Origin: Lebetimonas natsushimae | GTDB taxonomy: Bacteria > Campylobacterota > Campylobacteria > Campylobacterales > Nautiliaceae | NCBI RefSeq assembly: GCF_002335445.1 | Contig: NZ_BDME01000002.1 | Location: 372,001-436,000 of the forward strand | DNA length: 64,000 bases | Direction of reading: 5' to 3' | Shown here: positions 15,421 to 51,102 of the stretch, in pieces | Layout of the letters: the number at the start of each line of letters is the position of its first letter | Position numbering within the stretch: the stretch's first letter is position 1 | Made by a program: the position numbers and the translations under genes | Notes under the pieces: generated by a model | Seen by the model: only the letters and a program-made list of their open reading frames with translations | The model's database searches: none | What the model was told of the DNA's origin: nothing

Positions 15421-16246
15421 TATTTTCCCCTAAAATTTTATAAGTATCTATTTTATAAAAAGTTTTTAATTCTTTATAAATATCAGGAAAATGTTTTTTT
15501 AGAAGTGCAGGTCTTATAAAAAAATATTCACTCATAACGGCAAAAAATTCTGCTTTGTTTGTTGTTGCATATTTGTTTATCAGGTGATATTTTCCTAAAA
15601 ATCTGCCTTTAATTGTCTTTTCTTTAAATTTTTCGTATTCTCTGAACATTATTTTTGCAAATTCTTTTGATTTTTCACTATCAAGAGGAGGTAAACCATC
15701 TATATTACCATCTGAATAATCAATTTCATGTGCAAATTCATGAACTATCACATTTCCTCTACAAGACTTTATTTCTTTTTTTGCATCATTCCAGGCAATT
15801 AAGACAGTGTCATAAGTTGCTTCTCCTTCAATTAATATTTCCTGGTTGGCAAAATATTTTTCTATTTCTTTTTTTACAATTGTACTCGGATATACAAAAA
15901 TATATTCTACATTTGGATAACAGAAATATTTAGCATACAGTGTTAAAAGGCATGCATAAAATGCAATATTTATTTTTATTTCATCAGTAATGTTTATTTT
16001 TATCCCAATAAATTTTTTTTCATTTAAAAATATTTGAATTTTAAAATTCATAACTTTTTTAAGATTTTTAGGTAAAAGGGTGTAATATTTAATATTGTTT
16101 AAAATATCTAGAATTTTTTTTGGGGGAGGCTTTTTTTCTATTTCTTTTAACCAATTTTTATATTTAATATATTCTACTAGTTGAATGAATAAAAAAATAA
16201 AAAATAAGAACCATAAAAAGGCTAAAAATAAAGCAAATTTATCCAT
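15410..16246 (-). CDS. MtfA-like zinc metallopeptidase (M90 family), membrane anchored
   Basis: A 278-residue protein with one N-terminal membrane segment (residues 4-26, FALFLAFLWFLFFIFLFIQL). The zinc motif HEFAHEID near residue 169 is followed by a downstream Asp/Glu-rich segment (DGNIDGLPPL) and a third metal-ligand region (NKAEFFAVMSEYFF). Family knowledge: MtfA binds the Mlc repressor and has peptidase activity in E. coli. Mlc is not seen here, so the role is open. It overlaps crcB by one base. Confidence 0.82.
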   Translation of the reverse strand: MDKFALFLAFLWFLFFIFLFIQLVEYIKYKNWLKEIEKKPPPKKILDILNNIKYYTLLPKNLKKVMNFKIQIFLNEKKFIGIKINITDEIKINIAFYACLLTLYAKYFCYPNVEYIFVYPSTIVKKEIEKYFANQEILIEGEATYDTVLIAWNDAKKEIKSCRGNVIVHEFAHEIDYSDGNIDGLPPLDSEKSKEFAKIMFREYEKFKEKTIKGRFLGKYHLINKYATTNKAEFFAVMSEYFFIRPALLKKHFPDIYKELKTFYKIDTYKILGENNVC

Positions 16247-16632
16247 TATTTAAAGATAGCCTCTATTCCTTTGAAACCTGCAGCCGCAAGTAAAATACTT
16301 CCTATGACATTAAGTAATATATATGAAAGTGATTCAAAAATGAGTCCATTTTTTATAAGGAAAAAACTCTCAACCGCAAATGTTGAAAAGGTCGTAAAAG
16401 CTCCCATCATTCCAGTTGTAAGAAGTGATTTTATATGAGCGTTTTGAATTATACCGTATTGGATAAGACCAATAAAAATTCCAAGCAAAAAACTTCCTAT
16501 AAGATTGACGCTCAGTGTTCCAAAAGGGATGTCATGTTTAAAAGCATTATTTACAAGACCAGCTGTGTAAGCTCTGAGTATTGCACCTATAAAACCACCG
16601 ATACCAATAGCAAGCATTGTGTCAAATTTCAT
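16246..16632 (-). CDS. crcB: Fluoride ion transporter CrcB
   Basis: A 128-residue, four-span protein of the CrcB/Fluc family, which exports fluoride as an antiparallel dimer. Conserved features are GGFIGAILRAY at the N terminus, FGTLSVNLIGSFLLG (with the conserved Asn) and TGMMGAFTTFSTF with the Phe/Thr/Ser track. The start follows the plsC stop by 2 bases. No fluoride riboswitch-like sequence is visible; the gene simply sits inside the operon. Confidence 0.92.
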   Translation of the reverse strand: MKFDTMLAIGIGGFIGAILRAYTAGLVNNAFKHDIPFGTLSVNLIGSFLLGIFIGLIQYGIIQNAHIKSLLTTGMMGAFTTFSTFAVESFFLIKNGLIFESLSYILLNVIGSILLAAAGFKGIEAIFK

Positions 16633-16634
16633 TT

Positions 16635-17336
16635 TTATCCTTTTGTATTATTATATTCTTTATCTAAAATTTCCTGCATTTTTTTTCTCATATCTTCATA
16701 CCAGTTTGGATTGTCTTTTGGATAAAAAGACGGTAAAAATATTACTTTTATGGTTTGTTTTTCTATTCTAAAAGGTTTGTTTTTAAATGCAAAAGGTAAA
16801 TTTATTATAACAAACGGCTGAACTTTTAAATTTAATTTTTCAACTACGCCTTTTAATCCTTTTTTAAAAGGTAACAGTTTTGTCGGGTCTTTTTTATTTC
16901 TTGTACCTTCAGGAAAAGCGGCAATTTTTAAATTTCTTTTTATCCTCTCTTTTATTTCCCTTATCATTTTGATAGTAGAAGCTTTATTTGTCCTGTCTAC
17001 TAAAATCATATCTGTTTTTGTAACCATATATTTTACAACCGGAATTTTACCAAGTTCTGCTTTTGCAATCCAAATAATTTTTTCATCTATAACAGATTCA
17101 AGTAATGCAATATCAAGGTTATTTGTATGATTGCCTAAAAATATATTTGCATTTTTATCTATTTCACCTTCTATGATTATTTCTTTTGCGATCATATCTG
17201 TTAGAATATGCGAGCATTTTTTTCTGTATTTTAATTCATTTTTCGGGTCTATTCCGCATAATGCACCTGTTATAAAAATGCAAATAGCCCCCTTTAATAA
17301 TTTAAAATAAGAAACTAAACTATTCAAGATTTTCAT
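16635..17336 (-). CDS. plsC: 1-acyl-sn-glycerol-3-phosphate acyltransferase
   Basis: A 233-residue membrane acyltransferase that makes phosphatidic acid from lysophosphatidic acid. Motif I is NHTNNLD (H-x4-D) near residue 71. Motif III is FPEGTRNKKDPTKLLPFKKG near residue 137. An N-terminal hydrophobic segment (LLKGAICIFITGALCGI) anchors it. The start overlaps the upstream SH3-like gene by 17 bases. Confidence 0.9.
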   Translation of the reverse strand: MKILNSLVSYFKLLKGAICIFITGALCGIDPKNELKYRKKCSHILTDMIAKEIIIEGEIDKNANIFLGNHTNNLDIALLESVIDEKIIWIAKAELGKIPVVKYMVTKTDMILVDRTNKASTIKMIREIKERIKRNLKIAAFPEGTRNKKDPTKLLPFKKGLKGVVEKLNLKVQPFVIINLPFAFKNKPFRIEKQTIKVIFLPSFYPKDNPNWYEDMRKKMQEILDKEYNNTKG

Positions 17337-35522: not shown

Positions 35523-35850
35523 TTTTCCTCTTTTTCTTTTCGGTGATTATTATATATCTGTTCAATTATCTTCTGATAATTTAATTCTTCAAAAATATAT
35601 TCTTAACTGTTCAAAGGCTTTAACATCTGTAAATTCATCTGAAAAACTGCTTTTTAAAATAAAAACTAATGAAAAAAATGTGTTAAAGATATGTAAAAGA
35701 GAGAGTAATAATATTATGTTAAATCTTTTTAAATATAAAGTTTTTTTATATTCAAAAAACAATAAAATAAAACTTACCTTTATTCCCAAAAGGTTTGATG
35801 TTATTATAAAAAACGGTTATGCATATTTTTACTTAAAAGATGAAAAATGA
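35512..35850 (+). CDS. Small putative exported protein without a standard start codon
   Basis: An open frame runs from a stop at 35485 to TGA at 35848-35850 and fills the gap between the LPP20 gene and cas6. The translation begins with a hydrophobic signal-like stretch (IISFPLFLFGDYYISVQL), followed by a charged mature part ending FIPKRFDVIIKNGYAYFYL. There is no ATG, GTG or TTG near the front. ATA codons (35509-35517) or the ATT at 35518 would have to serve, coupled to the lipoprotein stop at 35520. An internal ATG at 35716 would give only 44 residues. It overlaps the cas6 ATG. Alternatively it is a decayed gene. Confidence 0.45.
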   Translation: MIISFPLFLFGDYYISVQLSSDNLILQKYILNCSKALTSVNSSEKLLFKIKTNEKNVLKICKRESNNIMLNLFKYKVFLYSKNNKIKLTFIPKRFDVIIKNGYAYFYLKDEK

Positions 35851-36539
35851 AATTTTATGAAATAAATATACAAACTGCTTTAAAATCCCCAATTCATTTT
35901 CAAAAATCACCTGAGGCTATTTCAAAACTTATATCAACTGCTTTAATTAATGGAGGATATACTCTTCATAAAGAAAATATTCCAAAAAATCATGTTTTCT
36001 CAAATCTTGGAAAAGCAAATAGCAAAGGATTTTTTGAAAAAGAAGGAAAAATTATTTTTAGAAGTTTTCAAAAAGATTTAGTAGAAAAATTAGCTAAAAA
36101 TTTGTTTTTCTACGAAGATAATATCTTTAAGATTGAAGGTATTAAATTTAAAGAGGTTAAATATAAACCCATAAAAGAGATGATATCTCTTAATCCGGTG
36201 TTTATTAAGATGAAAAGTGGTGATTTTTGGAGTTTTCAAAAAAGTGGAGATTTAGGTGTTTTATTATCTGCACTGCAGGATAATCTGCTTAGAAAATATG
36301 AAATGATTTATAATGAAAAATTAAATCCGGAGAATAATTTTATCGAATATTTTCAAATAAAAAACAATAAACCTCAAACTTTTTTTTATAAAAATGTTAA
36401 GTTTTTTGGATGGAAACTTTATATAATCCCCCGAAATGATGAAATCTCCCAAAAACTAGCATTTGTCTCGCTTGGAAGCGGCCTTGGACATAAAAACAGC
36501 ACTATTGGAGGCGGATTTTTGAAGTATAAATTTGAATAA
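35847..36539 (+). CDS. cas6: CRISPR pre-crRNA endonuclease Cas6
   Basis: A 230-residue RAMP-fold RNase that cuts the repeat and leaves the 8-nt 5' handle on crRNA. The diagnostic Gly-rich loop GSGLGHKNSTIGGGF is at the C terminus, and an N-terminal His in LKSPIHFQKS could be catalytic. It is the first cas gene of a type I-B locus and is separated from cas8b by 68 bases containing a second promoter, so crRNA processing can be expressed apart from the Cascade operon. Confidence 0.92.
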   Translation: MKFYEINIQTALKSPIHFQKSPEAISKLISTALINGGYTLHKENIPKNHVFSNLGKANSKGFFEKEGKIIFRSFQKDLVEKLAKNLFFYEDNIFKIEGIKFKEVKYKPIKEMISLNPVFIKMKSGDFWSFQKSGDLGVLLSALQDNLLRKYEMIYNEKLNPENNFIEYFQIKNNKPQTFFYKNVKFFGWKLYIIPRNDEISQKLAFVSLGSGLGHKNSTIGGGFLKYKFE

Positions 36540-36570
36540 TTCTAAATAGACAAAAAGTGACTTGTAAAAG

Positions 36571-36579
36571 TGATATAAT
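36571..36579 (+). promoter_or_regulatory. Extended -10 promoter of the cas8b operon
   Basis: TGATATAAT (36571-36579) is an extended -10 element 28 bases before the cas8b ATG, with AGGGG as ribosome site. No good -35 box is visible. It would drive cas8b through cas2, including the inserted restriction/OLD block. Confidence 0.6.
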
Positions 36580-36607
36580 ATTAAAGTTTCATTAAATAGG
36601 GGATGTG

Positions 36608-39815
<3,208 letters not shown>

Positions 39816-39825
39816 AGGAAGTTAA

Positions 39826-42039
39826 ATGCAAGAAATTTTAAATCAATATTTTAAAAGAGATGAAAAAAATGAGTTAGTTCCAATTGAGGAAAATGGAAAA
39901 ATCTTTGCAATTTTAAAAAATAAATGGCTGGAAGCAAAACCAGAAGAAATAATAAGGCAAAAATTTATAGCGAAACTTATAGAGGAGTATGGATACGTAT
40001 CAGAACAAATGGCACAAGAAGTAAAAGTTAGTAACTCAAAAAGAGGTTCAGGAAAAGCACAAGCTGATATAGTAGTATGGAAAACAAAAGAAGATAAAAT
40101 TAATCAAAAAAATGCTTTTTTAGTTATTGAATGTAAAGCACCTACTATAAAATTAAAACTTGAAGATTGTTATCAAGGGATGAATTATGCTACTTGGTCA
40201 AGGGCTAAAATTTTTGCAATTTATAATGACAATGAAATGCAAGTTTATAAAATTGATGAAAGTAAAATTCCTATTTTATCAGATTCATTTAAGCCTATAA
40301 ATGATATTCCAAAAGCGAATGAAATTTTAGATGAAAATAAATTAGAAAAATTTTTACAAAAAACAAAAGAGTTTAAAGGAGATGAATTTGCACGCCTTCT
40401 TCATAAATGTCATAATATTATAAGAAATAATGACAAACTTTCTCCAGAAGCGGCATTTGATGAAATTAGTAAAGTTTTGTTTATAAAAATTATGTATGAA
40501 AGAAGTCCCAAACAAGAAGGTATTTTTTCTTTACAACAATTTAAAAAATTAAAAAGTGCTTGGGAACTTGCAAGGGGAAAAAGCGATAAGGCTGAAAGTT
40601 ATATGCAAAAACTTTTTGAAGATGTTAAAGAAGAATTTAAAAATGATGGGATTTTTGAAGATAATGAAAAAATAAAATTAAAAGAAAGTACATTTGAAGC
40701 AATTGTAAAAGAGCTAGAAATTTATAATCTTACAAAAACAGGAGCTGATGTAAAGGGTATTGCATTTGAAAAATTTTTAAGTAAAACTTTTAGAGGTCAA
40801 CTTGGTCAGTTTTTTACTCCAAGGACAATTGTTGATTTTATGGTTGATTTTATTAATCCAAAAGAAAATGAATTAATTTGTGATCCTTGTGTTGGAAGTG
40901 GTGGTTTTATAATTAAGGCATTTGAAAAAATTAAAGAAAATATAGAAAATGAATATAAGTTTAAGAAATTCGAATTACAAAAAAAAATATTTGGAGAAAA
41001 TCAGGAGTATTTAGATAATAAAGAAAAACAAAAAGAATTTGAAAAAATTTTAAGCAAATTAAATAATGAAGAACAAATGAGATTAAAACAATTATCCTGT
41101 TGTGCTATATATGGGACGGATGCAAATCCAAGAATGGCAAGAGTTGCAAAAATTAATATGATTATGCATGGAGATGGACATAGTGGAATTCATCATCATG
41201 ATGGATTGCTTAATATTAATGGAATTTTTAGAAACAGGTTTGATGTGATTTTGACTAATCCTCCTTTTGGAATTACTTATAATAACGATTTACCAAAAGT
41301 TCAAGAAGATGATAAATTTAAAGATGAAAGATTAATAGAAGAATATAAAAAAAAATATGGTGAAATTTATGAAGAAGAATTAAAGCAAGTTACGGATAAT
41401 ATAGGTAAGCCAATTAGAAATCTTTTTGAAGTTGGAAAATATACAGGAAAGAGCGAAGTATTATTTATTGAAAGATGTTTAGACTTATTGAAGCCAAAAG
41501 GTAGGATGGGAATAGTTTTGCCAGAAGGTGTTTTAAATAGTAGTGACTTAGAAAAGGCGAGGGAACTTTTTGAGGGAAGAGCTAAAATAAAATTGATAGT
41601 TTCATTACCGGATGAAGTATTTTTAAGTGCTGGAGCTACAGTAAAAACAAGTTTAGTATTTTTACAAAAATATTCTGAAGAAGAAAAAAATGAATTTGAA
41701 AAAATTAAACAAGAATGTGAAAATGAATTGAAAGAAAAATTAAAAATTTATGAAAAAGAAAATCAATTATCAATAATAAAAAAGAATTTGAGAAATAAAA
41801 AATTAGAAAAAGAAATAAAAGAGAAATTAAGAAAAAATAAAAAAGAAATAGAAAAAGAATTAAAACAATTATATAAATACTTAGAAACTAAATTAATGCC
41901 TTGTGTAAGAGAAAATTTTGATTATGAAATATTGGTAGCCGATATTAAAAAAGCTGGTATTACTTCTACGGGAGATATGACAGATAATGAACTTATTGAA
42001 TTATTAAAAGAATTAAAATCAATTAAGGTTTGGGAATGA
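39826..42039 (+). CDS. Restriction nuclease-N6-adenine methyltransferase fusion (HsdR-N + HsdM, BcgI-A-like)
   Basis: A 737-residue fusion. Residues 40-145 form an HsdR-N-type PD-(D/E)XK nuclease domain with D81 (AQADIVVW) and E102-C-K104 (VIECKAP). Residues 165-540 form an HsdM-like adenine methyltransferase with GQFFTPRTIVDFM (327-339), the SAM motif DPCVGSGGF (353-361) and the catalytic NPPF (479-482). A Lys/Glu-rich coiled coil follows, around residues 620-690. Both activities in one chain plus a separate S subunit match the type IIB/IIG BcgI-A plan rather than type I, because no HsdR helicase gene is present. AAGGAAG precedes the ATG. Confidence 0.85.
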   Translation: MQEILNQYFKRDEKNELVPIEENGKIFAILKNKWLEAKPEEIIRQKFIAKLIEEYGYVSEQMAQEVKVSNSKRGSGKAQADIVVWKTKEDKINQKNAFLVIECKAPTIKLKLEDCYQGMNYATWSRAKIFAIYNDNEMQVYKIDESKIPILSDSFKPINDIPKANEILDENKLEKFLQKTKEFKGDEFARLLHKCHNIIRNNDKLSPEAAFDEISKVLFIKIMYERSPKQEGIFSLQQFKKLKSAWELARGKSDKAESYMQKLFEDVKEEFKNDGIFEDNEKIKLKESTFEAIVKELEIYNLTKTGADVKGIAFEKFLSKTFRGQLGQFFTPRTIVDFMVDFINPKENELICDPCVGSGGFIIKAFEKIKENIENEYKFKKFELQKKIFGENQEYLDNKEKQKEFEKILSKLNNEEQMRLKQLSCCAIYGTDANPRMARVAKINMIMHGDGHSGIHHHDGLLNINGIFRNRFDVILTNPPFGITYNNDLPKVQEDDKFKDERLIEEYKKKYGEIYEEELKQVTDNIGKPIRNLFEVGKYTGKSEVLFIERCLDLLKPKGRMGIVLPEGVLNSSDLEKARELFEGRAKIKLIVSLPDEVFLSAGATVKTSLVFLQKYSEEEKNEFEKIKQECENELKEKLKIYEKENQLSIIKKNLRNKKLEKEIKEKLRKNKKEIEKELKQLYKYLETKLMPCVRENFDYEILVADIKKAGITSTGDMTDNELIELLKELKSIKVWE

Positions 42040-43319
42040 TTTTAAAGAAAATTAGATATAAAGATTTAAATAATTGGAGTGTGAAATTTTTAATAAGCAC
42101 TTCTATTTCTAGTAAATATTTTATAGATAGATTACAAAATTATATTGAAGAAAAAAAGTGCAAAATATCTCCTTATAATTATCCTGATAAAAAGTTTAAA
42201 ATCTTAGGAGTTAATAATAAAGTGGGTCTTTTTGATAATGAAATAAAATTAGGGAGAGAAATTAATCAAGATTATAAAATAGTAAGATTTAATTATTTTG
42301 CATTCAATCCATATCGTATAAATGTAGGTTCAATTGGATTAAAAACAAAAGAAAATAAATATAGATATATTAGTCCAGCTTATATTGTTTTTAGGATAAA
42401 AAATAAAAGGAAATTATTACCAGAATATTTGTTTTTACTTTTTAAAACTAATATTTTTTTAAATGTAATTAGAAATAATACAAAAGGAAGTGTTAGACAG
42501 ATATTATCTTATGATATTTTAGAAAATCTAAAAATACCTATTCCAGACATTGATATTCAAAAAAAATTAATTTTTAAATATTTTAATATAAAAGAAAGAT
42601 TAAAAAAATTAAAAGAAGAATATTTTGTTTTATTAAAAGAATTTGAAAAAGCTTTATTTATCAGTGAAAAAAATAAAAATAAATTTCTTTTAAATAAAAT
42701 AAGATATAAAGATTTAGATAGTTGGAGTGTTAATATATTGATGGAAAATTTGATTAAGTCATCATATCCTTTAAAGCCCTTTAAAGAAGTATTATCGAAA
42801 GCTGATATAAAGAAAATAAATATTGAAGATGATAAAAAATATAAAATATTAGGTGTAAAAAGCTTTGGTAGAGGAGTTTATATAAATAGGGAAGTAATAG
42901 GTAAAAATTTAAAAATGAAAAAATATCAACTAGCAAAAAAAAATCATTTGTTTTGGTGTAAAGTAGATACTAAAAATGGTGCATTTGGGATTATTACTGA
43001 AGAGTTTGAAGGTACTATAGCATCTTCAAATATGACATTTGCTAAAATAGATACTAATAAAATTAATTTATTTTATTTACAATTATTATTTCAATTAACG
43101 ATATTCAATAAATATATGGATAATAAAGTTACTGGAACTACAAATAGAAAATATATTAAATTTGATGAATTATTAAATAATACAAAAATTCCTCTACCCG
43201 ATATTAAAACTCAAAAAAAATTAGTTGAAAAATTAGAAATAAATTTGAAAGAACAAAGAAAATTGGAAAAGGAATTAAAAAAAACTTTAGAAAAATTTGA
43301 AAATGAAATTTTTGAGTGA
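42036..43319 (+). CDS. HsdS-like DNA specificity subunit with two recognition domains
   Basis: A 427-residue specificity subunit with two halves of similar plan. Each begins with a related element (KIRYKDLNNWSVKFL near residue 4, KIRYKDLDSWSVNIL near residue 223), contains a target-recognition domain and ends with a Lys/Glu coiled coil after IPIPDIDIQKKL or IPLPDIKTQKKL. Two different target domains imply a bipartite recognition site. The ATG at 42036 overlaps the fusion gene's stop (ATGA), so the pair forms one restriction-modification unit. Confidence 0.87.
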   Translation: MILKKIRYKDLNNWSVKFLISTSISSKYFIDRLQNYIEEKKCKISPYNYPDKKFKILGVNNKVGLFDNEIKLGREINQDYKIVRFNYFAFNPYRINVGSIGLKTKENKYRYISPAYIVFRIKNKRKLLPEYLFLLFKTNIFLNVIRNNTKGSVRQILSYDILENLKIPIPDIDIQKKLIFKYFNIKERLKKLKEEYFVLLKEFEKALFISEKNKNKFLLNKIRYKDLDSWSVNILMENLIKSSYPLKPFKEVLSKADIKKINIEDDKKYKILGVKSFGRGVYINREVIGKNLKMKKYQLAKKNHLFWCKVDTKNGAFGIITEEFEGTIASSNMTFAKIDTNKINLFYLQLLFQLTIFNKYMDNKVTGTTNRKYIKFDELLNNTKIPLPDIKTQKKLVEKLEINLKEQRKLEKELKKTLEKFENEIFE

Positions 43320-44340
43320 TTTTTTTAAATATATTAAAAAACTTTTAACAAAATGGTTTTTTTATATGGGTTTTTTACCTACAATTTATGATTATATTTC
43401 TGTATATTTACCTAAAAAATGGAATGTAATTAAAATTCCGTCTTTTATAAATTATATGTTTTTAGTATTATTTTTTATAGCTTCTTCTTTTGTTTTATGG
43501 CTAGAGGAGAAGAAACAAAAAGAAGAAGTAATTAATAAATTGAAAGAGTATTTAAATACTTTACCAAATTATAAAATAAAGTTAATTTTGAAAAAATATG
43601 AATTACAAGAAATTAAAGATTTTAGATTAGAAAAAGAAAAATTATTAAAAAAAGCATTAAAACAATTAGAATTTTTAAAAGATAAAGGACAATTAGATAC
43701 TTTAAAGGGTTATGAAATTGAAGAATTGTTTGATTTTATACCTATTGAATCTGAATATGATTTAAATAAATATATATCTGATTTAAAAAATTTTATTACA
43801 AAAATTAAATCTTTAAAGATTGATAAAAATATTGAAAATATCCAAATTTATGAAGCAACTGTTGAAATAAGCAATATAGGTTTGAAATCTGATGAAAATA
43901 TATATTGTAAAATAGAATTAGGAAAAGAAAATGTTGCTTTTAAATATGTAGAGGATTTTGAAGATAAATTGAAAGAAATTATTAAAGAAAAAATACCAAT
44001 TCTGCCGGAATTTCCTAAACCTGTAAAAATAAATAAATCAAAAGAAACATTTTATGAAATGAATAAAATAATAAACTTTTCAAAATCTACTTTAATATCT
44101 CCTATAGAAAAAATAGATACTAAATTTTTAAGATTATCTGAAAACAGACATCCTCCTTATTTTTTTGTAGATGAACATCAAATTATAATTAAAGATTTGA
44201 ATTTAAATACAGGAATGACTCATAGTAGAAATTTTTATCTAATTTTAAATAATAAAGATAATATTAAATACTATATTACTTCAAGAAATTTACCAAGACC
44301 TATACAAGGAATATTAAAGGAGATTATTTATGAAATTTAA
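43303..44340 (+). CDS. Membrane-anchored protein of unknown function, partner of OLD-like ATPase
   Basis: A 345-residue protein that I do not recognise. It has a hydrophobic, possibly re-entrant segment at about residues 17-36, a clear membrane helix at 47-66 (INYMFLVLFFIASSFVLWL), then a Lys/Glu coiled coil (67-130). A beta-rich C-terminal half follows (IYEATVEISNIGLKS, YFFVDEHQIIIKDLNLNTG). The start is the ATG at 43303, inside the HsdS stop region (17-base overlap), and its end overlaps the ATPase gene by 11 bases. This tight coupling suggests that it works with the ATPase, perhaps as a membrane sensor or effector. Confidence 0.7.
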   Translation: MKFLSDFFKYIKKLLTKWFFYMGFLPTIYDYISVYLPKKWNVIKIPSFINYMFLVLFFIASSFVLWLEEKKQKEEVINKLKEYLNTLPNYKIKLILKKYELQEIKDFRLEKEKLLKKALKQLEFLKDKGQLDTLKGYEIEELFDFIPIESEYDLNKYISDLKNFITKIKSLKIDKNIENIQIYEATVEISNIGLKSDENIYCKIELGKENVAFKYVEDFEDKLKEIIKEKIPILPEFPKPVKINKSKETFYEMNKIINFSKSTLISPIEKIDTKFLRLSENRHPPYFFVDEHQIIIKDLNLNTGMTHSRNFYLILNNKDNIKYYITSRNLPRPIQGILKEIIYEI

Positions 44341-45970
44341 ATTTATTAAAATAAAAGGTTATAAAAATTTAGATTTTGAAATGAAATTTCCAGATGACGG
44401 AGTAGCTGTTTTTATCGGGAATAACGGAAGTGGAAAAAGTAATCTTTTAGAAGCTATAAGTTTAATATTTGGATATTATTATAATATTAATTTAATAAAT
44501 AAGCTAAATTTTGAATATGTTATTAGATATGAAAAGAATAATGAAGAAATAGTATTGACTAATAATAGAGAATATATAGATGAAACTAAATTACCTGATA
44601 AGATAATATGTTATTATAGTGGAGAAGAAGCAAGATTGTGGAATGATATTTATAAAAAGTTTTATGAAATAGAAAATAAAAAGTTTATTAATAATAGTTT
44701 TCCTCGTTTGCCTAGTTTATTATTTCTAAATAAATATTATTGGAAAATAGCATTAATAATGTTAGTTTTAAATAATAAAAATGAAAAAGAAATAAATTTA
44801 TTTAATTATTTCGATTTAAATGAAGTTAAATATAAAATATTTAAAAATAATAGTAATTTATCTAAGTGGAAATCAAATGCAATAAGTCAATTTATAAATA
44901 ATTTTCCAGAGGAAGGTATGATAAAAGATATAAATTTTGGAGATTTAAAAGAATTTTTTTTTAAATTGTATTTTTCTTATATACCTAAAAATAGTAAATT
45001 TATTGATAATATTCAGATCTTTGATATTAAAAAAAATAAAGTGTTATTATCATTTATTGATTTAAGTGAGGGAGAAAAAAGATTTATTTTATATAAATTT
45101 ATAATTGAATTATTAGCAACTCAAGATACATTATTATTGTTTGATGAAATTGATAATAATATACATCCTGCAAATAAAAAATATTTAAAAAAAATTTTAT
45201 TTGAAAATTTTATCGATTTAGATAAAAATATAATTTTTACTACTCATTCTCCTACTTTAACTACAATTTTTGAGACAAAAAATAATTTTATGTTAGATAG
45301 TGGAAAAATTATTAGTTATGATAAAAAGCAAATAATTAAAAAATTAACTGAAAATAAATGGAGCTATTTTGAAATTAATGAACTTTTAACTACTAATGAA
45401 GATATTGTATTGGTTGAAGGTTCAACAGATGTTCTTTATTTGGAAGAAACATTAAAATTATTTAAGAATAAAGGTAAATTTAAAAATTTAAGTTTAAAAT
45501 TTATACCTGCAGGAGGAGCAAATAATGATATGGAATTTTTTATAAAAAATTTAACAGTAAAAGAAAATCAAAAAATATTTGTATTATTAGATAATGATGA
45601 AGCAGGTAAAAAGGCTTTTAAAAAATTAGAAAAAGATTTTTCAAATCAAAAGTATTTACATATTTTAAATTTGCCAAAGCCAGTGCAAAATTTTACTGAA
45701 AATGATTATTGGGAAATAGAAGATTTCTTTGATAAAAAATTAGTAAAAGAAATTGCAAAAGAAAATTTTAAAAAACAAATAGAAAATAATTTAATTTCTT
45801 TTCCTAAATTAGGAAAGAATACAGTTTCGAAATCAAGTATAAAAGGAATGATAAAGGATGAATTTGATAAATTTAAAAAAAATGAAAGAAGTTTAATTGA
45901 AGAAGAACATTTATCTGATTTTGAAAAAATATTTAAATTAATAGAAAAAGTAAAGAATGAACCAGTTTGA
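44330..45970 (+). CDS. OLD-like AAA/ABC ATPase with C-terminal TOPRIM nuclease domain
   Basis: A 546-residue ATPase. Walker A is GNNGSGKS (30-37), the ABC signature LSEGEK is at 245-250, Walker B LLLFDE is at 268-273 with DNNIHP, and the switch His is in TTHSP (H306). A TOPRIM domain follows, with the Glu in LVEGSTD (E363), a Gly-rich turn GGANND and the acidic DND of LLDNDEAG (421-423). This domain order is that of OLD-family nucleases and GajA-like defence proteins. AAGGAG precedes the ATG. No UvrD-like helicase follows, so it is not a standard Gabija. The last 14 bases overlap cas3. Confidence 0.85.
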   Translation: MKFKFIKIKGYKNLDFEMKFPDDGVAVFIGNNGSGKSNLLEAISLIFGYYYNINLINKLNFEYVIRYEKNNEEIVLTNNREYIDETKLPDKIICYYSGEEARLWNDIYKKFYEIENKKFINNSFPRLPSLLFLNKYYWKIALIMLVLNNKNEKEINLFNYFDLNEVKYKIFKNNSNLSKWKSNAISQFINNFPEEGMIKDINFGDLKEFFFKLYFSYIPKNSKFIDNIQIFDIKKNKVLLSFIDLSEGEKRFILYKFIIELLATQDTLLLFDEIDNNIHPANKKYLKKILFENFIDLDKNIIFTTHSPTLTTIFETKNNFMLDSGKIISYDKKQIIKKLTENKWSYFEINELLTTNEDIVLVEGSTDVLYLEETLKLFKNKGKFKNLSLKFIPAGGANNDMEFFIKNLTVKENQKIFVLLDNDEAGKKAFKKLEKDFSNQKYLHILNLPKPVQNFTENDYWEIEDFFDKKLVKEIAKENFKKQIENNLISFPKLGKNTVSKSSIKGMIKDEFDKFKKNERSLIEEEHLSDFEKIFKLIEKVKNEPV

Positions 45971-48287
45971 TATCTTCTCCCACCTTCATCCCTCAAAACC
46001 TCCTGAATTGTTAGAAGAGCATAAAAAATTAGTGAGTGATTATTTTGAAAAGATTGTTAGATTTAAAAATATTGATTTAGATAAACTGGCTGAATGTTTT
46101 GAGATAAAAGATAAGTGTTTTGTAAAAAAACTGATAAAAGAAGTAGTTGTTTTGCACGATGAGGGAAAAGTTAATCCGGGGTTTCAGTATATTAAAATGA
46201 AAAATGAGGCTTTTAAAGACGCTTATGAAAATATGGAGATAAAAACTTCAAAGCATTCTTTCCCTGGGGCGGTTTTATTTTTTGAGAGATTTATTGAGGA
46301 AGTGGATAGTGAAAATGATGATGAAGAGTTTAATAAAAAGCTTTTTTTATTGGTTGCTTTTTCTTTTCTTATAGCAAAACATCATTCAAAACTTGATAAT
46401 TTTGAAAGATTTGTAGATGAATTAAAGGATGCTTTAAGCGAGAGGAATTCTCCTTATGTTCCGTTTTATTTAAATTTTAATTATTTAGATATTAAAAAGT
46501 TTGTTGCAATAAAATTTATTTTTTCATTGATTATTAGTAGTGATTATTATGCAACGCTTGAATATATGGCTGATTTAAAAATAGATGATTTTGGAAAACT
46601 TGATGTTAAAATGGCAAAAGAGGAATTTGAAGATTTTGAAATTATAAAAAATATAAGAAATAAAATTTATAAAAAGCCTATTGACAGGTTAAGAAGCGAA
46701 ATGTTTTTAGAGGCAGAGAAAAATTTGGATGTTTCAAAAAATATTTTTTATCTGCAAGCTCCAACCGGCGGGGGAAAAACGATAATTTCTTTAAATTTGG
46801 CCCTAAATCTTAATCCTACTAAAATTTTTTATGTTTTTCCATTTAATACTTTGGTTGAGCAGACTGAAAGTAAAATAAAAGAGATTTTTAAAAATTTAGA
46901 TTTTGCAGTGGTTAATTCAATAACCCCTATTACAGATGAGGAAGATGATAAAAATCAATATGAAAAAGTTTATATTAACAGACTTTTTTATCAAAAGGAA
47001 CTTATTTTAACTACACACGTAAATTTTTTTGATATTTTGTTTGGGATTAATAAAGAGGGTAATTTTGCTTTGTGGCAACTTTATGGAAGTGTAATTATTT
47101 TAGATGAAATACAGAGTTATAATAACAATTTGTGGTGGTATATGGCTGAGTTTTTCAGTGCTTTTAGCGAGGTTTTAAATTTAAAAATTATTATAATGAG
47201 TGCAACTTTGCCAAAAATAGATAAACTTCTTGAAAATAAAAATGAGTTTTTTAATTTGCTTGACAGCAAAAAATATTTTCAAAATCCTTTGTTTAAAGAA
47301 AGGGTTGAAGTTGATTTTAGTTTGATTGATGAAGAGTTTAGTTTTGAAGAAATTAAAAAAAGAATTGTAAATTATAAAAGGATTTTAATAGAATTTATTA
47401 AAAAAGACTCTGCGAGGGAATTTTATGAATATATTAAAGATTTGGAAGATTATGAAGTTTATGAGTTAAACGGGGATGACAATAAAATTTTTAGGGATTT
47501 TGTAATTAAACGGACAAAAGAGGCTGAAAAAATTATAGTGGTTTCAACTCAGGTAATTGAAGCCGGGGTTGATATAGATATGGAAGTCGGTTTTAAAGAT
47601 ATTGCAACGATTGACAGTGACGAACAGTTTATAGGGAGAATAAACAGAAATTCTTTACAGAAAGGGAAAGCCTATTTTTTTGATAATGATGATGAGAGTG
47701 ATATTTATAAAAAAGATAACAGAATTGGAATAAGTCTTAGGGATGAGAAATATAGAAAAATTTTTTTGAATAAAGAGTTTGAATTGTATTATGATGAGGT
47801 GTTAAAAAGAATAAAAGAAAAAGGAAAAAGTTTTAACGGAGTTGAAACAAATATTGAGAGTTTTAAAAAAGCTGTAAAAAGACTTGATTTCAATGCTGTC
47901 AATAGATTGATGAAATTGATAGATGATGCCAGTGTTACGGTATTTTTTCCATATAAGATTAAATTAAAAGGAATTTATGAGCTTGATTTTGTGGATGAAA
48001 AATTTATAAATGACGGTTTTTTTGACGGTTGTTTGGTTTGGAAGGCATTTAAGGAATTGAATGAAATAAAAAATTTTGCAAAAAGGGAAATTGAAAAATC
48101 AAAACTTAATTATTTAATGCAGTTTTTTACATTTAATCTGCCTTTTGTTAAAAAGCTTAATATTTATGATGATGAATGTTGCGGTATTTATTTGATTGAG
48201 GATTATGAAAATTATATTGATGAAAATTTTAAATTTGACAGAAGAGTTTTTTTAGATAATCAAAAAAGGGAATATAATTTTTTATGA
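45957..48287 (+). CDS. cas3: CRISPR helicase-nuclease Cas3 (type I-B)
   Basis: A 776-residue effector. The N-terminal HD nuclease domain has H22, H67-D68 (VVLHDEGK), H100, H142-H143 (AKHHSK) and D196. The SF2 helicase has Walker A APTGGGKT (268-275), DEIQ (383-386), SAT (415-417) and STQVIEAGVDIDM with FIGRINR for motifs V and VI. The start ATG lies inside the OLD-like gene, 14 bases before that gene's end, with only a weak ribosome site. Translation is therefore probably coupled to the inserted gene. Confidence 0.94.
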   Translation: MNQFDIFSHLHPSKPPELLEEHKKLVSDYFEKIVRFKNIDLDKLAECFEIKDKCFVKKLIKEVVVLHDEGKVNPGFQYIKMKNEAFKDAYENMEIKTSKHSFPGAVLFFERFIEEVDSENDDEEFNKKLFLLVAFSFLIAKHHSKLDNFERFVDELKDALSERNSPYVPFYLNFNYLDIKKFVAIKFIFSLIISSDYYATLEYMADLKIDDFGKLDVKMAKEEFEDFEIIKNIRNKIYKKPIDRLRSEMFLEAEKNLDVSKNIFYLQAPTGGGKTIISLNLALNLNPTKIFYVFPFNTLVEQTESKIKEIFKNLDFAVVNSITPITDEEDDKNQYEKVYINRLFYQKELILTTHVNFFDILFGINKEGNFALWQLYGSVIILDEIQSYNNNLWWYMAEFFSAFSEVLNLKIIIMSATLPKIDKLLENKNEFFNLLDSKKYFQNPLFKERVEVDFSLIDEEFSFEEIKKRIVNYKRILIEFIKKDSAREFYEYIKDLEDYEVYELNGDDNKIFRDFVIKRTKEAEKIIVVSTQVIEAGVDIDMEVGFKDIATIDSDEQFIGRINRNSLQKGKAYFFDNDDESDIYKKDNRIGISLRDEKYRKIFLNKEFELYYDEVLKRIKEKGKSFNGVETNIESFKKAVKRLDFNAVNRLMKLIDDASVTVFFPYKIKLKGIYELDFVDEKFINDGFFDGCLVWKAFKELNEIKNFAKREIEKSKLNYLMQFFTFNLPFVKKLNIYDDECCGIYLIEDYENYIDENFKFDRRVFLDNQKREYNFL

Positions 48288-48766
48288 TTACCGGTACTAT
48301 GATTAATTATTATATCCATTGCAAGACTCAGCTTTGGCTTTTTTACCATAACATAAACCTTGAAGATAACAGCGAGGATGTAAGAATTGGTAAAGTTTTG
48401 CACGGAATAAGCGATGAAAAAGTAGATGAGGTAAGTTTAGAAAATATTAAGGTGGATAAAATTACAAGGGATTATGTTATTGAAATTAAAAAAAGCGATA
48501 GTGACATTGAAGCGGCAAAATGGCAATTGTTGTATTATCTTTACAGACTTAAACAAAAAGGAATTTATAAAAAAGGAAGGCTTGAAGTCTTTGAAAAACG
48601 AAAACAGGATAAGAAAAGAATAGTTATTGAACTTAATGAAGAAAATGAAAAGAGACTTTTGGAAATAATTGAAGATATTGAAAAAATAATAAATTCTCCT
48701 ATGCCGGAGCCTGTGTTTGAAAGTAAATGCAGAAAATGTGCATATTATGAATTTTGTTTTTTGTAA
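48284..48766 (+). CDS. cas4: CRISPR adaptation exonuclease Cas4
   Basis: A 160-residue RecB-type nuclease with a 4Fe-4S cluster. Cysteine ligands are C13 (YYIHCKTQ), and C149, C152 and C158 (CRKCAYYEFC). The nuclease core includes GKVLHG, VIEIKKSDSD and AAKWQLLYYLYRL. It trims prespacers to select PAM-proximal ends. The start overlaps the cas3 stop by 4 bases, and cas1 follows after 8 bases. Confidence 0.92.
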   Translation: MITGTMINYYIHCKTQLWLFYHNINLEDNSEDVRIGKVLHGISDEKVDEVSLENIKVDKITRDYVIEIKKSDSDIEAAKWQLLYYLYRLKQKGIYKKGRLEVFEKRKQDKKRIVIELNEENEKRLLEIIEDIEKIINSPMPEPVFESKCRKCAYYEFCFL

Positions 48767-48774
48767 GGAAAGAG

Positions 48775-49755
48775 ATGAAAACTCAGTATATTTTTTCAAT
48801 GGGTGAGATTAAAAGAAAAGATAATTCCATTGCTTTTAGAAATGAAAAAGGCTGGAAATATATCCCGGTTGAAATGGTAAGAGAACTTTATTTTATGAAT
48901 GAAGTCAGTTTAAATTCAAAATTTTTGGATTTTTGTGCAAAAGCCGGGATAGTTTTACATTTTTTTAATTATTTTGGAAATTACAGCGGAAGTTTTTATC
49001 CAAAACGAAAATATATAAGCGGAAATCTGACAATCGCTCAGGTAAAAGCGTATGAAAATGATAGATTAACTATTGCGAAAGCAATTGTTTTAGGAATAGC
49101 CGAAAATATTTATGAAGTTTTGTATCATTATTACAGACACGGAAAAAGTGAGCTTAAAAATTTTTTAACATATTTAAGAGAGGATATTCCAAAATTTATT
49201 GAAAAAGCAGACAATATAAATAAACTGCTTTTTATTGAGGGAAATATTTGGGCCGGATTTTATGATAATTTTAAATATTTTCTGCCGGAAGACTTTTTGT
49301 TTAATAAAAGGGTAAAAAGACCTCCCGATAATCCGATGAATGCACTAATTTCTTTTGGAAATACTTTGCTTTATACAAAAACAATTACGGCAATTTACCA
49401 GACACATTTAGACCAGTCTATAAATTTTTTTGCATTTACCAAGTGAGAGCAGGTTTAGTTTGAGTTTGGATTTAAGCGAAGCTTTTAAGCCTGTTATTGT
49501 ATTTAGAACGATTTTTGATTTGGTAAACAGGAAAAAATTAAAAGTTGAAAAACATTTTGAAAAAAATTTAATTATGCACTTTTAAATGAAGAAGGCAAAA
49601 AAATTTTTATAGCTGCTTTTGAAGAGAGATTAAATGAAAAATTTAAACACTCAACCTTAAAAAGAATGGTAAGTTATAACAGTGCAATAAAACTTGACGG
49701 ATATAAACTTATAAAATTTTTGATTCAAAAAAGCCTTTTAAACCATATAGCCTGA
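48775..49755 (+). pseudogene. cas1: cas1 integrase gene with two compensating frameshifts
   Basis: The frame from ATG 48775 (MKTQYIFSMGEIK) matches Cas1 up to TITAIYQTHLDQSI, including the catalytic Glu in LLFIEGNIWAGFYDN, then stops at 49446. The next frame continues with Cas1 sequence ([35 protein letters not shown]) from about 49427 to 49560, and the original frame resumes ([20 protein letters not shown] ... LLNHIA) to TGA at 49753-49755. Together they give a full-length Cas1 of about 326 residues. The shifts fall at a T7 tract (49425-49431, one extra T) and near an A7 tract (49560-49566, one base missing). As read, the product lacks the catalytic His and Asp. Confidence 0.88.
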
Positions 49756-49762
49756 AAGATAA

Positions 49763-50065
<303 letters not shown>

Positions 50066-50216: not shown

Positions 50217-51102
50217 GTTTAACCGATACATTTAGTGTATTGAAACGCTTCTTTTTTATTCCTAAATAATTCAACCCGATTTGTTTAACCGATACATTTA
50301 GTGTATTGAAACATACAACGAGCTTTTTTTAACTCCTCAGCAACAATTGTTTAACCGATACATTTAGTGTATTGAAACTTTAATACCTTAATATAACTTT
50401 TATAATCATTTAAAAGTTTAACCGATACATTTAGTGTATTGAAACATCTCTTCTTTTGGGTAATATTTGCCTTTTTCAAGTTTAACCGATACATTTAGTG
50501 TATTGAAACTCAATAAAAATTTGACCTTTTATTATTGCTTTCTCGTTTAACCGATACATTTAGTGTATTGAAACTTATTATTCTTTTGATTATTTGTTTT
50601 TAAATTAATGTTTAACCGATACATTTAGTGTATTGAAACCGTCTTAGATAAAGTTTTTCCCATTCAATTTCTTCACCGGTTTAACCGATACATTTAGTGT
50701 ATTGAAACAAAGCAACAAACCCACTAATCATAACGCTTATAGGGTTTAACCGATACATTTAGTGTATTGAAACTTAGTGTTGTTATAAGAGAAAGTTTGT
50801 GATACTTCATGTTTAACCGATACATTTAGTGTATTGAAACAAATCTTTTAATTGTATAAATCGTGAATCCATTTGGTTTAACCGATACATTTAGTGTATT
50901 GAAACATATTATTAGAACCAGAATTTGAATTAGAAGAACCGTTTAACCGATACATTTAGTGTATTGAAACAAATCGCTTTTCTCCAAAATATACTTATGC
51001 AATGCACATTTAACCGATACATTTAGTGTATTGAAATAAAATATTATTTGGACAAGGTTTTATCTGATCTTGATTTAATTGATACATTTAGTATACAAAG
51101 AT
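50217..51102 (+). CRISPR. Type I-B CRISPR array, 14 repeats and 13 spacers
   Basis: The repeat is 30 bases, starting GTTTAACC and ending ATTGAAAC, with an internal hairpin ATACA-TTTAG-TGTAT. Twelve identical copies start at 50217, 50283, 50349, 50416, 50480, 50545, 50610, 50679, 50744, 50811, 50876 and 50941. Copy 13 (51008-51037) differs at its first and last base. Copy 14 (51073-51102) is degenerate, mainly in the 3' third. Spacers are 34-39 bases, mostly 35-37. The ATTGAAAC end is the typical 8-nt crRNA handle left by Cas6. The distal decay places the active end near cas2. Confidence 0.97.

Follow-up and report, generated by a model that had tools for sequence, protein, structure and literature searches.

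Does Lebetimonas natsushimae still acquire new CRISPR spacers? The question is raised by the only cas1 gene of its genome, which as assembled does not form one open frame. The gene lies in the window that we analysed, the whole stretch of 64,000 nucleotides from positions 372,001 to 436,000 of contig NZ_BDME01000002.1, and the coordinates given here are positions in this window unless another sequence is named. The locus is organized as cas6-cas8b-cas7-cas5, a block of nested genes, cas3-cas4-cas1-cas2 and a repeat array, with the cas genes and the array on the + strand. The effector module of cas6, cas8b, cas7 and cas5 (35847..39815) is intact, as judged by profile matches and by orthologues of its genes in relatives. 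Cas8b (E 4e-116) and Cas3b (E 2e-227) were recognized together with Cas5h, which was above the cut-off, and with Cas7/Csh2 and Cas6, whose matches were weaker and below it; this is the composition of a type I-B effector. Also intact are cas3 (HD and helicase, 45957..48287), cas4 (48284..48766) and cas2 (99 aa, 49766..50065). The array (50217..51038) has 13 repeats (GTTTAACCGATACATTTAGTGTATTGAAAC), the last of which is degenerate, and 12 spacers of 34-39 nt. An adaptation module of cas4-cas1-cas2 beside a repeat array is thus present, but its cas1 is not open.

As read, cas1 starts at the ATG at 48775 and runs in frame 1 to the TGA at 49444-49446, giving a protein of 223 aa. This 5' part (48775..49446) encodes the catalytic Glu (EGN), and its residues 1-219 match the N-terminal part of type I-B Cas1 (TIGR03641, cas1_HMARI or Cas1b; also TIGR00287). 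Past a T7 run at 49425-49431 the Cas1 homology moves to frame 2 (...VEKHFEK), and after an A7 run at 49560-49566 it is found in frame 1 again. The middle part (49432..49559, + strand) carries conserved motifs with His (FLH) and Asp (SLDLSE), which we take to be catalytic residues. The motif of this stretch is shared by sister sequences and aligns with solved Cas1 structures, among them 4wj0, 4xtk and 7ei1. The 3' part in frame 1 (49567..49726, + strand) is likewise conserved. A functional integrase is encoded by a single open frame that includes the Glu, the His, the Asp and a C-terminal domain, and the protein as read is not of this kind because the stretch with His and Asp lies in another frame and beyond the stop. 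The gene resembles type I-B cas1 in the order cas3-cas4-cas1-cas2-array and in the catalytic motifs still present in the DNA, but it is spread over several frames, and its product as read has neither the His and Asp nor the C-terminal part.

In the DNA alignment, the T7 run is one base longer than in every alignable relative. The truncated cas1 of one relative, which reaches this tract only, likewise lacks the additional base. The A7 run is one base shorter than in every alignable full-length relative. One row of the alignment (L010) represented a wrong ORF and was left out of the comparison. A third lesion was found in an A6 run at 49727-49732 (+ strand), which is one base shorter than in the full-length relatives. 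The first-pass annotation had described the two tracts with their frame changes and the loss of His and Asp, and the sequence bears this out, as does the comparison with relatives. It had also regarded the two changes as compensating, with a net shift of zero and an intact 3' end. However, the three length changes (+1, -1 and -1) add up to -1, and the C-terminal tail is altered. The tail as read is ...LIQKSLLNHIA before a stop at 49753-49755, whereas the third frame matches the EEFKPFSLKEKR with which the sister's protein ends, and its stop overlaps the start of cas2. The TGA at 49444-49446 sits between the two tracts, and the second change therefore restores nothing in translation. Compensation is ruled out by this stop and by the third lesion, which would alter the C-terminus even if the tracts proved to be T6 and A8, a state in which cas1 had been expected to be intact.

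No second cas1 that could stand in was found in the genome. No match to a second copy of the strain's cas1 was found in viral contigs, and a search of genome and plasmid collections for it returned distant relatives only. Because Cas1 and Cas2 integrate spacers and there is no second cas1, adaptation should be off in this strain if the lesions are real. Interference may persist, since Cascade, Cas3 and the array of 12 spacers are intact. Judged from the sequence, new spacers would not be integrated, and the 12 existing spacers would still be processed and used. The searches for spacer targets gave no sign of when a spacer was last gained: no convincing target was found in 456 kb of the own genome, in 800 kb of the sister genome or in phage or plasmid records, and two spacers searched exactly against viral contigs had no match.

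We give about an even chance to the reading that we favour, in which the strain has genuinely and recently lost the ability to acquire spacers and has kept interference. The only cas1 would then be a very young broken gene, with three one-base changes of A/T runs in its 3' third. Most likely, replication slippage would have produced the first change, and the others would have followed under relaxed selection. We infer that the lesions are present in the cells and that they lead to the phenotype outlined above. Real loss is supported by the difference of the lesions from every alignable relative, by the presence of a single cas1 in the genome, by the lack of comparable disruption in the other genes compared with the sister and by the full length of the other cas genes. 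It is also supported by the ease with which cas genes are lost, as in one relative (L160), in the same-genus sister (G001) and in Shigella.

The remainder of cas1 has been kept under strong constraint. Across 308 codons that lie away from the tracts, comparison with the sister gave a dN of 0.071 and a dS of 0.824 (dN/dS about 0.09). Both values were alike in all three segments of the gene and similar to those of intact pairs. A single replacement unique to L. natsushimae was found in the scored columns (192 of the 308 were invariant in five relatives), and a further change, from Ser to Asn, lies beside the T tract. The relaxed constraint and the accumulated missense and nonsense changes of an old pseudogene were thus absent from cas1. 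By a rough Poisson estimate, in which the branch was assumed to be half of dS, any time without constraint took up at most about 3% of the branch that leads from the split with the sister. Given this constraint, the inactivation, if real, must have been very recent, and the view put forward at first, that the event is recent or the sequence in error and that the gene has not decayed over a long time, is upheld. A gene that drifts neutrally should gather more point substitutions than indels. Three homopolymer indels with no visible excess of missense changes therefore sit awkwardly with real loss.

A sequencing patch would leave just this pattern of run-length changes with no missense damage. 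Some 310 bp of low coverage, or a consensus taken from a single read, could have led to the miscalling of three A/T runs in a gene that is intact in the organism. All lesions are one-base changes of run length with mixed sign, they are tightly clustered, constraint is normal across the remaining cas1, and the overlap of stop and start with cas2 is kept in the original frame. We regard such a local artefact as a serious possibility, at somewhat less than even chances; to place real loss ahead of it is a matter of judgement and not of calculation. Against the artefact, cas1 is far from the contig end (421 kb of a 480 kb contig), and the patch would by chance have had to strike one of the few gene classes that are readily lost. 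In addition, the assembly is clean elsewhere, including its longer runs.

The quality of the assembly was examined by comparing genes of the sister with 856 kb of the L. natsushimae genome, taken in stretches. Among 354 genes of contig 2 (339-343 kb), internal disruption was found in cas1 only. The other flags on this contig were differences in the start region or, at C2:118 kb, a difference in the tail, which we attribute to the sister, a generally noisy sequence. A few flags were left among 313 genes of contig 1 (269 kb), and at most 2-3 of these were single-base differences that could be of either genome. The sister showed about 20 apparent frameshifts against the L. natsushimae genome and contained N bases, which suggests that its assembly is noisy. 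Altogether, no disruption comparable to that of cas1 was found in 667 other genes over 608 kb aligned with the sister, and the 856 kb scanned contain over 650 runs of at least 8. A uniformly error-prone assembly, in which frameshifts would be expected at A/T runs throughout, is therefore excluded. If lesions were placed uniformly among the roughly 6,700 runs of at least 6, three would fall within 310 bp with a probability of roughly 1e-6. Because the lesions are clustered and nothing comparable is found elsewhere, they share a local cause. If the cause is a sequencing patch, the locus is a warning that one gene of an otherwise clean assembly can be miscalled as lost.

The good preservation of cas1 could also be expected if slippage during transcription or translation of the runs restored some full-length Cas1. 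Rescue of this kind was described in Blochmannia and Buchnera for frameshifts in poly(A) (PMC3017870), where the changes are likewise of one base in poly-A/T runs and the genes are otherwise well kept. A moderate stem was predicted downstream of the T7 run (z = -2.0). However, the sequence after the A7 run has no more structure than expected by chance, and intact relatives have one open frame, so nothing of the frame change is conserved. Moreover, rescue would take three slips, and these would be of two kinds. The runs measure 7, 7 and 6 nt, less than the 9 nt from which selection against slippage can usually be recognized (PMC1088944). The frequency of insertion errors grows exponentially as a run lengthens (PMC5574713). 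The cas1 runs are also shorter than those of Blochmannia and Buchnera, and three of them fall in one gene. We therefore consider it improbable that slippage rescues Cas1. The locus has neither a conserved frame change nor a run of about 9 or more, and programmed recoding was rejected on the single open frame of the relatives, the short runs, the moderate stem after T7 and the absence of one after A7.

A reversible change of run length in the DNA had been another suggestion. Slippage would then switch adaptation on and off within the population in a heritable manner. The cells in the off state would keep their immunity and avoid the cost of acquiring spacers from their own genome, and slippage would regenerate acquirers. 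All that speaks for such a switch is the position of the runs itself. The runs are short, more than one of them must be in phase together, the second site is not purely A in the sister, and the genome has many runs at least as long that have no such use. We think phase variation highly unlikely here, and a heritable switch of this kind just as unlikely. The earlier suggestion of reversible slippage is not supported, given runs of only 7, 7 and 6 nt, the lack of such a frame shift in relatives and the need for three slips.

If real loss is correct, the strain carries a frozen CRISPR memory in which the interference genes are intact and adaptation was lost very recently. Adaptation and interference would then be cleanly uncoupled in a natural strain, with the reverse in the sister, where the adaptation genes are intact and the effector genes have decayed. 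In the sister (G001, C1 at about 252-258 kb, reverse strand), the open frames of cas7 and cas3 are lost, their pieces being broken into three frames, and cas1 and cas2 are intact beside a long array with a different repeat. The relative L160 has also lost Cas1 next to a long array. Its cas1 was broken by an insert of about 270 bp with inverted repeats, whereas that of L. natsushimae was broken by changes in run length. The insert (L160:1927-2196) is a MITE-like element with inverted ends of 32 bp, which interrupts cas1 just after the catalytic region, and the interrupted gene adjoins an array of 18 repeats. The decay of cas genes is well known, and the biology at this locus, whether the lesions are real or an artefact, is of a known kind. 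Cas loci with frameshifts have been described in Shigella, and the degraded loci of Shigella and E. coli likewise contain frameshifted or truncated cas genes beside arrays that were kept (PMC2886076). In L. natsushimae, however, cas1 alone is affected and the effector genes are intact.

The varied defence-like genes nested in the cas operons of this family are of more interest than the loss of cas1. The nested block of L. natsushimae (39826-45970) encodes HsdM, HsdS, a 347-aa protein and an OLD/TOPRIM-type ATPase. Its type I methyltransferase and specificity genes (39826-43319) have no recognisable restriction subunit gene adjacent to them in the block. In the I-B operons of the family, the accessory genes at the cas5-cas3 junction vary. 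A SIR2-nSTAND-like protein is encoded there in one relative (G006). In another (G002), the protein encoded at this junction is NERD-like and has a SEC-C motif, and a protein with a metallo-beta-lactamase fold is encoded between cas8b and cas7. Outside L. natsushimae, the nested genes were located at L152:15777-18164, L155:12213-14549 and 16145-17323, L158:4707-5393, L159:3496-4461 and L160:2922-3893. The pattern suggests a slot that is used repeatedly for defence cargo. Across the family and the order, the cas5-cas3 and cas4-cas1 gaps are the most frequent sites of the predicted defence or accessory genes, and more distant relatives carry Fic or RhuM-type genes at other junctions.
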